Assembly (NCBI GenBank): GCA_028336245.1
Contig: JAOKTT010000003.1
Coordinates: 1-64,000 of the forward strand
DNA length: 64,000 nt
Source of the DNA: Polaribacter sp.
Lineage (GTDB): Bacteria; Bacteroidota; Bacteroidia; Flavobacteriales; Flavobacteriaceae
Direction of reading: 5' to 3'
In this document: piece by piece, positions 2,708-19,902 of the stretch
Numbering within the stretch: position 1 is the stretch's first letter
Layout of the letters: each line of letters starts with the position of its first letter
Position numbers and translations under genes: made by a program
Notes under the pieces: model-generated
Database searches by the model: none
What the model saw: the letters and a program-made list of their open reading frames with translations, nothing else
Told to the model about the DNA's origin: nothing

Positions 2708-3979
2708 ATGGCGGTAGATTTATTACTTGGATTGCAATGGGGAGACGAAGGAAAAGGCAAAATTGTAGACGTTTTAACCACAAACTATGACATTATTGCA
2801 CGCTTTCAGGGCGGTCCAAACGCGGGACATACTTTAATTTTTGACGGACACAAACACGTTTTACACACAATTCCTTCCGGAATTTTTCACAAAACAGCGC
2901 TAAATGTTGTCGGTAACGGTGTAGTGATAGACCCTGTTATCTTTAAAAAGGAGTTAGAAAATTTAGACAAACACAAAATTGATTATACCTCTAAATTATT
3001 AATTTCTAGGAAGGCCCATTTAATTTTACCAACACATAGACTATTAGATGCTGCATCAGAAACTTCTAAAGGAAAAGCAAAAATTGGTTCTACCTTGAAA
3101 GGAATTGGTCCTACTTATATGGACAAAACTGGAAGAAATGGAATGCGTGTTGGAGATTTAGAACTAGAAAACTGGAAAGAAAAATACCACGCTCTAACAG
3201 CAAAACATTTAGGGATGTTGGACTATTTCAATATTGAAATTGAATACGACCTAGACGAATTGGAAGCAGAATTTGATAGGGGAATCGATAAACTAAGAAC
3301 CTTACAATTTATTGATAGTGAAGAGTTTCTCAACCAAGCTATTAAAAATAAAAAGACCATTTTAGCAGAAGGCGCACAAGGATCTTTATTGGATATTGAT
3401 TTTGGAACCTATCCATTTGTTACTTCGTCAAATACTACGGCCGCAGGAGCTTGTACTGGTTTAGGGGTAGCCCCTAACAGAATTGGTGAAGTTTTTGGAA
3501 TTTTTAAAGCCTATACAACACGTGTAGGATCCGGCCCTTTTCCTACAGAGTTATTTGACAAAGATGGTGAAGATATGGCTAGAATTGGTCATGAATTTGG
3601 CGCTACTACAGGAAGAGCAAGAAGATGCGGTTGGCTAGACTTAGTCGCATTAAAATATGCCGTAGATGTCAACGGAGTTACCCAATTAATGATGATGAAA
3701 GGTGACGTACTTTCAGGATTTGATACCTTAAAAATATGTACTTCTTACAATTACAAAGGAAAAAAAATTACACATTTACCTTATAACATAGAACCAGAAA
3801 ATGTTTCTGTAAACTATACGAAATTTAAAGGTTGGGATGAAGATTTAACTAAAATGACATCTGCAGAACAACTACCAAAAAATCTTATGGACTATGTGGC
3901 TTTTATTGAAAAAGAAACCGGTGTTCCTGTTTCAATTGTTTCCGTTGGCCCAGACAGAAAACAAACGATTGTAAGATAG
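2708..3979 (+). CDS. purA: Adenylosuccinate synthase
   Basis: MAVDLLLGLQWGDEGKGKIVDVL...GGPNAGHT...; ATG at 2708 preferred over the upstream alternative start at 2684. Confidence 0.97.
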   Translation: MAVDLLLGLQWGDEGKGKIVDVLTTNYDIIARFQGGPNAGHTLIFDGHKHVLHTIPSGIFHKTALNVVGNGVVIDPVIFKKELENLDKHKIDYTSKLLISRKAHLILPTHRLLDAASETSKGKAKIGSTLKGIGPTYMDKTGRNGMRVGDLELENWKEKYHALTAKHLGMLDYFNIEIEYDLDELEAEFDRGIDKLRTLQFIDSEEFLNQAIKNKKTILAEGAQGSLLDIDFGTYPFVTSSNTTAAGACTGLGVAPNRIGEVFGIFKAYTTRVGSGPFPTELFDKDGEDMARIGHEFGATTGRARRCGWLDLVALKYAVDVNGVTQLMMMKGDVLSGFDTLKICTSYNYKGKKITHLPYNIEPENVSVNYTKFKGWDEDLTKMTSAEQLPKNLMDYVAFIEKETGVPVSIVSVGPDRKQTIVR

Positions 3980-4000
3980 TTGAAAAACCTTTTTAATAAT

Positions 4001-4037
4001 AAAAAGCATCTTTTTTAATTCTAAAAGATGCTTTTTT
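4001..4037 (+). terminator. Rho-independent-like terminator after purA
   Basis: Inverted repeat aaaaagcatctttttt-aattct-aaaagatgcttttttaa, T-rich 3' side. Confidence 0.7.
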
Positions 4038-4127
4038 AATTTCAAAACTTTGGCCCACCAGTTAATTTTCTCTTTTCTTTCCTAAGAAGAAATAATCTTT
4101 CTGTATTTTTGTTGAAAATAGGAACTT

Positions 4128-10029: not shown

Positions 10030-10158
10030 CATTTTTTCCTTGAATTTTAAACAATAAATAATAGATAGCTATCATTAATGAATAAAGAAAATTTATTTGT
10101 ATAAAAATTACATATTTTCTAATTAAAGACTATAAAATTTACAATAATATTAAAAAAA

Positions 10159-10455
10159 GCAGGCTAATAAGCCGAATCCTGTCCCTTTAAAAAAGGTTCT
10201 TATCATTTATCTCGTTCTAAAATTACTCTTAGAATCTATCTGCCTACCCTTTAGAATCGAGCGAGTAGCTCTCAAACTCTAATTTACATGGCATTGCACC
10301 TCATAGAGTTTACCTGGTTTCACTACAGCCGAACTGTACTTGCTTTCTGTTGCACTGGTCCTCAACTTACGTTGGACGGATGTTATCCGCTATGATACTC
10401 TATGGTGTCCGGACTTTCCTACATGCTAAAAAGCATGACGATAAGATAAGCCTGC
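10159..10455 (-). ncRNA. rnpB: RNase P RNA (bacterial class A)
   Basis: Minus strand contains GTAGGAAAGTCCGGACACC, GTGCAACAGAAAGCAAGTACAG, GGTAAACTCTATGAGGTGCAA and GGACAGGATTCGGCTTATTAGCCTGC. Terminal GCAGGCTTAT/ATTAGCCTGC pairing followed by a T tail. Confidence 0.95.
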
Positions 10456-10494
10456 TTTTTTTTATATTGTCATTATAAAAGTAGTTCATTTTCA

Positions 10495-10567
10495 TAAAAA
10501 ACCCACTCAATAAATTGAGTGGGAAAATTGCTATGAAAAAGAAAAAGTGTTGATGATAAATCAACAA
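10495..10567 (-). ncRNA. Candidate small RNA (about 70 nt) with promoter-proximal hairpin and intrinsic terminator
   Basis: Minus strand: TTG-21 nt-TATATTTG promoter (10573-10604), then TGTTGATTTATCATCAACA hairpin, A/T-rich linker, then CCCACTCAATTTATTGAGTGGGTTTTTT. No credible CDS overlaps it. Confidence 0.6.
10502..10523 (-). terminator. Intrinsic terminator CCCACTCAAT-TT-ATTGAGTGGG + TTTTTT
   Basis: Perfect 10-bp stem with a T tail on the minus strand. Confidence 0.8.
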
Positions 10568-10572
10568 CACAA

Positions 10573-10604
10573 CAAATATATACTTATTATCTTATAAAAA
10601 ACAA
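10573..10604 (-). promoter_or_regulatory. Bacteroidetes-type promoter (TTG...TATATTTG) driving the candidate sRNA
   Basis: -7 box TATATTTG at 10573-10580; -33 TTG at 10602-10604; 21 bp spacer. Confidence 0.6.
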
Positions 10605-10656: not shown

Positions 10657-11790
10657 TTATGAAAACATATCCTTTACTTTTTCAAAAAAAGACTTGTCAG
10701 ATTTATTAGGAGCAGGTCTAAAATTTTGATGATCCGACATCTCCTCGAAAAAGTGCTTTTGCTTTTTATCAAGCTCTTGAGGCGTCCAAACATTGATATG
10801 AATTAGAAAGTCTCCTGTTCCATACCTCTCGATACTTGGCAAACCCTTTCCTTTTAATCTTAATATTTTACCTGATTGTGATCCCCCGTCAATTTTAATT
10901 TTCACTTTCCCAGAAACAGTATCTACTTCTTTACTTGTTCCAAGAACTGCTTCAGAAAAGTTGATATACAAATCATAATGAATATTTGTGCCTTCTCGTT
11001 TTAAAGTTTCGTGGGGAATTTCTTCAATTAATACAAGAAGATCTCCAGCGATTGAATTCTTACCCGGGGCTTCATTTCCTTTTCCTCCTACTTTCAACTG
11101 CACACCCTCTGTAACTCCTGCAGGAATGCTAATAGAAACCGTTTCTTCTTTAATGAGCAAACCTTGAGCATCTGCATCATTAGGCTTATTACTTATGATC
11201 TCACCAGCACCAGAACAAGTTCCACAAGTAGCAGCTGTTTGCATTCTACCTAATATTGTATTGGTAATACGCATTTGCTGGCCAGAACCATCACAGGTGG
11301 TGCATTTTTTATAAGAAACACCTTCCGCTTGCATTTTACGTCTCACTTTTACCTTTTTCTCTGCACCCTTAGCGATTTCTTCTAAAGTAAGCTTTACACG
11401 AATACGCATATTACTTCCTTTAACACGCGCTTGACGTTGGCCGCCGCCAAATCCACTAAAACCGCCGCCACCGCCGCTGCCAAAAATATCACCAAACTGA
11501 CTAAAGATATCATCCATATCCATACCGCCGCCACCGAAGCCACCTCTGCCGCCGCCTTGCGGACCGTCTAAACCTGCATGACCATATTGATCATATCTTG
11601 CTTTTTTATTGTCGTCACTTAAAATTTCGTAGGCTTCTGCAGCTTTTTTAAAATTTTCTTCAGCAGTTTTATCATCTGGGTTTTTATCAGGATGATATTT
11701 AATCGCCATTTTTCTGTACCCTTTCTTAATTTCTGCTTGAGAAGCAGATTTTGAAATATCTAATGTTTCGTAAAAATCTTGTTTTGCCAT
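10657..11790 (-). CDS. dnaJ: Chaperone protein DnaJ
   Basis: J domain (HPDKN), Gly-rich region, two CxxCxGxG motifs, C-terminal substrate-binding domain; directly downstream of grpE. Confidence 0.96.
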   Translation of the reverse strand: MAKQDFYETLDISKSASQAEIKKGYRKMAIKYHPDKNPDDKTAEENFKKAAEAYEILSDDNKKARYDQYGHAGLDGPQGGGRGGFGGGGMDMDDIFSQFGDIFGSGGGGGFSGFGGGQRQARVKGSNMRIRVKLTLEEIAKGAEKKVKVRRKMQAEGVSYKKCTTCDGSGQQMRITNTILGRMQTAATCGTCSGAGEIISNKPNDADAQGLLIKEETVSISIPAGVTEGVQLKVGGKGNEAPGKNSIAGDLLVLIEEIPHETLKREGTNIHYDLYINFSEAVLGTSKEVDTVSGKVKIKIDGGSQSGKILRLKGKGLPSIERYGTGDFLIHINVWTPQELDKKQKHFFEEMSDHQNFRPAPNKSDKSFFEKVKDMFS

Positions 11791-19621: not shown

Positions 19622-19711
19622 TTTTAATAAATTTGATTTACAATAAATCAGGTGAATTTCGTGTACGAACAAAGTATAGCACATAAACCTCTATCCCGAA
19701 AGTTTTTAACT

Positions 19712-19895
19712 CGTGATTTCTGGCAGGTTTCCTGACTTGCGTCTTGTAACAAACCTTCCCAACAATACATTGTCAGTGGTAAAAGAATAGTTACAAGCTT
19801 AATAGCTTACAGTTGCGGGAACAGCTCTGGAGTCTAACCAGATTCCCTTTTAATTTGAGATCGCGGTATAGCGATATCAAAACCAAAATCAAGAC
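19712..19895 (-). promoter_or_regulatory. Cobalamin (AdoCbl) riboswitch
   Basis: Minus strand has AGAGCTGTTCCCGCAACTGTAA, ACCACTGACAATGTATTGTTGGGAAGG and GACGCAAGTCAGGAAACCTGCCAGA, the B12-box/cobalamin riboswitch signatures. Confidence 0.93.
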
Positions 19896-19902
19896 AAATG
19901 TA
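19895..19902 (-). promoter_or_regulatory. -7 promoter box TACATTTG upstream of the cobalamin riboswitch
   Basis: TAnnTTTG match immediately 5' of the riboswitch on the minus strand. Confidence 0.55.

Follow-up and report, generated by a model that had tools for sequence, protein, structure and literature searches.

Among the small RNAs described in Bacteroidota, two groups can be set beside the RNA gene reported here. The FopS RNAs of Bacteroides thetaiotaomicron are paralogous sRNAs of 65-70 nt that have standard promoters, occur in 12-15 copies, keep their conserved seed in the 5'-terminal nt 1-21, are bound by RbpB and repress susC translation (PMC11697453). In Flavobacterium psychrophilum, Rfp18, an RNA with at least three stem-loops and predicted pairing through the third, affects protease mRNAs (PMC9723704).

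The locus analyzed here lies in a window of 64,000 nucleotides from Polaribacter sp. (contig JAOKTT010000003.1, the whole stretch of DNA under study), in which a preliminary description had proposed a stand-alone two-hairpin sRNA between rnpB and dnaJ. By analogy, FopS would be the closest working model. Like the FopS RNAs, the candidate belongs to Bacteroidota, is short, has a standard promoter, is multicopy with a shared conserved region and is also found in a phage (PMC11697453). FopS includes one member derived from a 3' UTR (PMC11697453), as is perhaps the case here in one relative (G010, see below). In contrast to the 5'-terminal seed of FopS, the conserved core is situated about 25-30 nt from the 5' end, between the first hairpin and the terminator. 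Also, FopS RNAs, which were compared by description, occur in Bacteroidaceae with 12-15 copies, whereas the dnaJ-linked RNA is single-copy in most genera. The Rfp RNAs are sRNAs of the same bacterial family, and some are conserved across species (PMC9723704). However, Rfp18 is conserved within Flavobacterium, where the dnaJ-linked RNA is mostly missing (genus g148, probably Flavobacterium), and it has at least three stem-loops versus two here; the 85 Rfp RNAs (PMC9723704) were set apart by description. Transcriptomic studies of F. psychrophilum may be silent on the RNA because many Flavobacterium genomes appear to be without it. The suggestion that the candidate might belong to an already reported family was not borne out. 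No Rfam 15 family reached its gathering score, the best sub-threshold matches being the unrelated sRNAs Ref84 (33.4 versus 52) and VrrA, and literature searches returned no report with this sequence or locus. The kind of molecule, a bacterial sRNA, is known, while the family appears to be new.

All parts of the locus are encoded on the minus strand of the window, between dnaJ upstream (10657-11790), whose product is closest to Polaribacter loci (84-86% identity), and rnpB downstream (10152-10458; Rfam RF00010, 201.5 bits). Promoter, hairpin, linker and terminator were all found as the preliminary description had it. A TTG (-33 element, 10602-10604) is followed after 21 bp by the -7 element TATATTTG (10573-10580), which is of the Bacteroidota TAnnTTTG type, and the dnaJ stop at 10657 lies 53 bp upstream of the TTG, in agreement with the earlier estimate of about 50 bp. 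The sRNA gene would comprise about 76 nt (10496-10571), with the 5' end placed from the promoter and the stem. It contains two stem-loops only. The 5' hairpin is formed by the arms GTGTTGTTGA (10561-10570) and TCATCAACAC (10547-10556) around a loop at 10560-10557. The linker or core TTTTTCTTTTTCATAGCAATTTT (10524-10546), invariant in the columns of alignment A1 and in genuine low-scoring matches to a covariance model, is predicted to be single-stranded, and is followed by the intrinsic terminator stem-loop CCCACTCAA-TTTA-TTGAGTGGG (10502-10523) and a T6 tract (10496-10501). Elsewhere on the minus strand of the window, a cobalamin riboswitch was identified (19705-19902; RF00174, 108.6 bits).

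The segment folds at -19.0 kcal/mol (z = -6.4), with none of 200 shuffles equally stable, and the terminator search found 1 terminator versus 0.2 expected. The terminator stem has 9 bp and a 4-nt loop, so that the stem and T6 tract described before were recovered, but not the length of 10 bp. Likewise, the first hairpin was present in a register other than the 7-bp one proposed. When the RNA is cut at about 10567, the optimum is indeed the 7-bp stem TGTTGAT/ATCAACA (-19.0 kcal/mol). If the 5' end is instead placed at 10570-10572, GUGUUG.U.UGA/UCA.U.CAACAC becomes the most stable stem, pairing 10570-10561 with 10556-10547 (-22.5 kcal/mol). This 10-bp stem, which includes one U-U mismatch and starts slightly upstream of the 7-bp register, is also the one that covaries in relatives. 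Because the 10-bp register is both the energy optimum and the covarying one, the transcript is more likely to start nearer 10571 than 10566, the position first suggested, which would be a few bases off.

No credible coding sequence occupies the interval, as had been noted, and the RNA is without AUG. The sole overlapping same-strand open reading frame of at least 30 codons (10400-10570, 56 aa) crosses the terminator into rnpB. A short plus-strand frame complementary to the core (antisense peptide MKKKKC) was also considered and ruled out, as the hairpin part varies freely.

Conservation within the genus (Polaribacter, or a group containing Polaribacter) was assessed from rnpB loci of relatives that were collected independently of the candidate. 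The linker CTTTTTCATAGCAATTTT and a CCC-type terminator were found upstream of rnpB in 32 of the 33 same-genus genomes with an rnpB locus, and the TAnnTTTG box and hairpin were nearly always at the same distance. An ordinary terminator takes the place of the sRNA in G011 (L027), and tandem copies are present in G002 and G003. In the dnaJ-rnpB interval of G010 (L021), the promoter and hairpin have been lost, and core and terminator directly follow dnaJ. The RNA of this genome would therefore be derived from a 3' UTR, a possible switch from a stand-alone RNA. In an alignment of 28 distinct genus sequences, made by MAFFT without reference to structure, two-sided changes were seen in 7 of the 10 pairs of hairpin 1 (91% of cells paired), the covariation score for the whole structure was 0.35 versus 0.126 in shuffles, and the linker was invariant except for the length of its last U run. 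A covariance model (R1), built from 28 sequences with the window sequence among them, matches the window RNA at 10572-10496 with 92.9 bits and detects the RNA in 167 of 168 genus genomes.

The RNA is also widespread in the family. R1 matched 221 of 251 Flavobacteriaceae genomes (208 of 237 genera), and outside the genus most of them gave a single match. Copy counts from the models are upper bounds, because weak matches (for example G000:C23:10457-10529 (+)) are artefacts of the palindromic terminator. With a broader model, R2, 22 of 248 genomes across the order were positive, all within the same family and none from another; in this search, most members of the large genus g148 were without the sRNA. 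A scan of GTDB representatives for the exact 21-nt core gave at least 118 stretches, of which the named ones are nearly all from Flavobacteriaceae; none of the 118 exact-core matches listed could be identified as a Bacteroides record. Core and terminator start are both present in 113 of the matches listed.

Covariation across relatives, which the preliminary description had named as a check, was strong. A family alignment of 92 sequences shows two-sided changes in all 10 pairs of hairpin 1 and in 18 of the 19 pairs of the whole structure, with a covariation score of 0.676 versus 0.188 in shuffles (reached by 0 of 500). These rows were fitted to the structure of the model and one row is an artefact, so that the alignment leans towards the structure. 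The sequence of hairpin 1 varies freely while its structure is conserved, and the core UUUCUUUUUCAUAGCAAUUUU is essentially invariant. In the 92 rows this invariance is partly by construction, because most rows were chosen by their exact core. The unbiased evidence is the rnpB-based set together with eight genuine low-scoring model matches from other genera, all of which keep a 22-nt core exactly.

Genomic context is dominated by dnaJ, which lies directly upstream in 102 of the 113 loci among the matches listed (median 74 nt to the core). Such a position, and the arrangement in G010, would suit a mere terminator (3' UTR) of the grpE-dnaJ operon that is preceded by a promoter and hairpin by chance. 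We regard this explanation as highly improbable and reject it. Conservation of the terminator alone, which the preliminary description had named as grounds against its own proposal, is decisively contradicted, as promoter, hairpin 1 and linker are conserved across genus and family. Of the 113 loci among the matches listed, 108 keep a TAnnTTTG box at a distance of 24-41 nt upstream of the core, versus 4.3% at random positions, and hairpin 1 covaries strongly. The sRNA can also be told from the dnaJ terminator because a separate terminator stands upstream of it in L050, because what precedes it in L056 is not the end of dnaJ, and because dispersed copies far from dnaJ keep the core, including ones with promoter and hairpin.

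The downstream neighbor is not constant. It is rnpB in records of Polaribacter, Tenacibaculum, Wenyingzhuangia and Lutibacter among the matches listed, and in the window's genus and its near relatives the RNA could on this ground be taken for an rnpB leader or a cis-acting attenuator of the downstream gene. Against this stands the absence of rnpB downstream in most other genera (among the matches listed); in three loci examined, from three other genera, the neighbor is an ABC-transporter ATPase and the RNA is unchanged. Moreover, the RNA ends in a complete terminator, and rnpB has a promoter-like box of its own, the candidate promoter TACTTTTA at 10471-10483 (minus strand), which in relatives reads TACTTTTG. 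A leader function was accordingly rejected, its residual probability being minimal.

Together, these comparisons make it nearly certain that the locus is a real RNA gene, as the preliminary description had proposed, and the RNA probably acts in trans through its core. Our preferred reading, to which we assign a probability of roughly 0.6, is that of a stand-alone, dnaJ-anchored sRNA whose core is a trans antisense seed at translation starts. The gene, of about 75-85 nt, would go back to the ancestor of Flavobacteriaceae, have its anchor downstream of dnaJ and be transcribed from its own housekeeping-type promoter. The 5' hairpin, conserved in structure and free in sequence, and the 3' terminator would protect and present the invariant single-stranded core. 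This core would pair with translation starts of the form (UUGCU)AUGAAAAAG (mRNA starts such as AUGAAAAA) and block initiation in the manner of the Bacteroides FopS RNAs.

Start codons are natural candidates for pairing because UUGCUAUGAAAAAG, with which genes for exported proteins typically begin, occurs in the reverse complement of the core. As the main mode of action, pairing at start codons is a tentative proposal, for which we would give somewhat less than even odds. In a genome-wide comparison of start regions in the complete genome G023, the linker paired no more strongly than 40 dinucleotide-shuffled linkers. The second-strongest start-region pairing in this genome was with comEC (identified by PF03772 in a relative), where 14 nt spanning the start codon match perfectly. 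Among 28 genus genomes, the comEC start is in most cases GCU-AUGAAAA or a near variant, and starts resembling GCUAUGAAAA recur; the site in the window's own genome is weak (-9.0 kcal/mol). In four sRNA-bearing genomes of other genera, compared by pattern positions, GCUAUGAAR was missing at comEC, so that comEC is not supported as a family-wide target outside the genus. Across the genus (L432-L460), comEC starts have a conserved TAACTTTA...GCTATGAAAA arrangement. The start sequences suggest a near-leaderless comEC mRNA in the genus, and their conservation may instead be maintained by the promoter-like box just upstream or by a leaderless start. We treat comEC as a lead rather than a finding, since the promoter-like box could explain the start and the four genomes of other genera are without the site. 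The comEC frame of G023 (L432) stops at 352 codons, versus about 675 in relatives, either by frameshift or by assembly error.

Other types of target were rejected. The exact 16-mer AATTGCTATGAAAAAG, used to look for long perfect mRNA matches in 40 genus genomes, falls mostly on the sRNA copies themselves (positions were compared with model matches for G002, G009 and G016). Pairing of the true linker with rRNA or tRNA is weaker than that of the strongest shuffles. Four sponge-like sites (L231, L283, L287, L288), in which a terminator immediately follows the core complement, have the appearance of chance or coding matches.

The main rival to seed pairing is protein binding. The invariant core could be the site of an RNA-binding protein, of the RRM or cold-shock type for instance, that the RNA sequesters or delivers, with the two UUUUUC repeats as contacts and no need for mRNA pairing. 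The core is invariant over about 200 genera while hairpin 1 varies freely, a genome-wide target signal is missing, the core is not complementary to rRNA or tRNA, and a protein ligand would account equally well for 21 nt that are perfectly invariant but have no visible conserved targets. On the other hand, the invariance extends to CAUAGCAA, which separates the U tracts and is not an evident protein motif, and we consider protein binding the less likely alternative. The occurrence of several copies in some genomes would suit titration of such a protein. Between carA and eno, the window's genome contains a second copy that is degenerate (G000:C1:5019-5093; L039, L075), and the exact core is kept at this site in the relatives G009 and G016 (L077, L078). 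Copies also recur next to a gene resembling cyoE/ctaB and next to one for a WbpD-like acyltransferase (both named by sequence reading only). Genome G002 has 13 exact cores. No copies were found on plasmids.

Copies are also present in phages. In the Polaribacter phages Danklef and Freya (Forsetiviridae) and Leef (Helgolandviridae), the 3' part of the sRNA is found with 83-84% identity in unannotated gaps, at about 3950-4060 of the analyzed stretches (L271-L273; Danklef_3, Leef_1, Freya_1). All three copies have a promoter-like box, core and terminator, and those of Freya and Leef also a small 5' hairpin. The 17-mer core occurs in 80 IMG/VR stretches, and the terminator directly follows the core at 19 of 83 viral core sites (a count that takes in the isolated phages, one of which appears twice). 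Four IMG/VR contigs (L469, L485, L492, L526) display a second architecture, a hairpin GGTAGT...ACTACC or a variant of it, followed by TTTTTCATAGCAATTTTC and a terminator.

Phage and dispersed genomic copies might alternatively mean that mobile elements spread and maintain the sequence, for example as an integration site (attB/attP), the RNA being incidental. Polaribacter phages do encode integrases (PMC8776804). However, the 8-kb stretches that surround the copy in Danklef, Leef and Freya show no annotated integrase, many of the phage copies come with a promoter-like box and a hairpin of their own and are not a fragment, and the dnaJ loci are uninterrupted. An attachment-site relic is therefore disfavoured, and we judge it very improbable. 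In its boldest form, the preferred reading of a trans-acting sRNA would make it a hitherto undescribed core regulatory RNA of the family Flavobacteriaceae that has an invariant seed and one ancestral locus at a chaperone operon, and that was taken up independently by phages of several lineages to steer host translation; we hold this extended scenario to be possible, though doubtful.

Flavobacteriaceae rank among the main degraders of polysaccharides in marine and soil habitats, and some members of the family are fish pathogens. To our knowledge, their post-transcriptional control is nearly unexplored. An RNA present in almost nine of ten genera with an unchanging core would, as far as we know, be more widespread than any other sRNA described as specific to this family. 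The phage copies make viral use of a host sRNA directly testable, and the dnaJ-linked sRNA offers a ready entry point to post-transcriptional control in Flavobacteriaceae.
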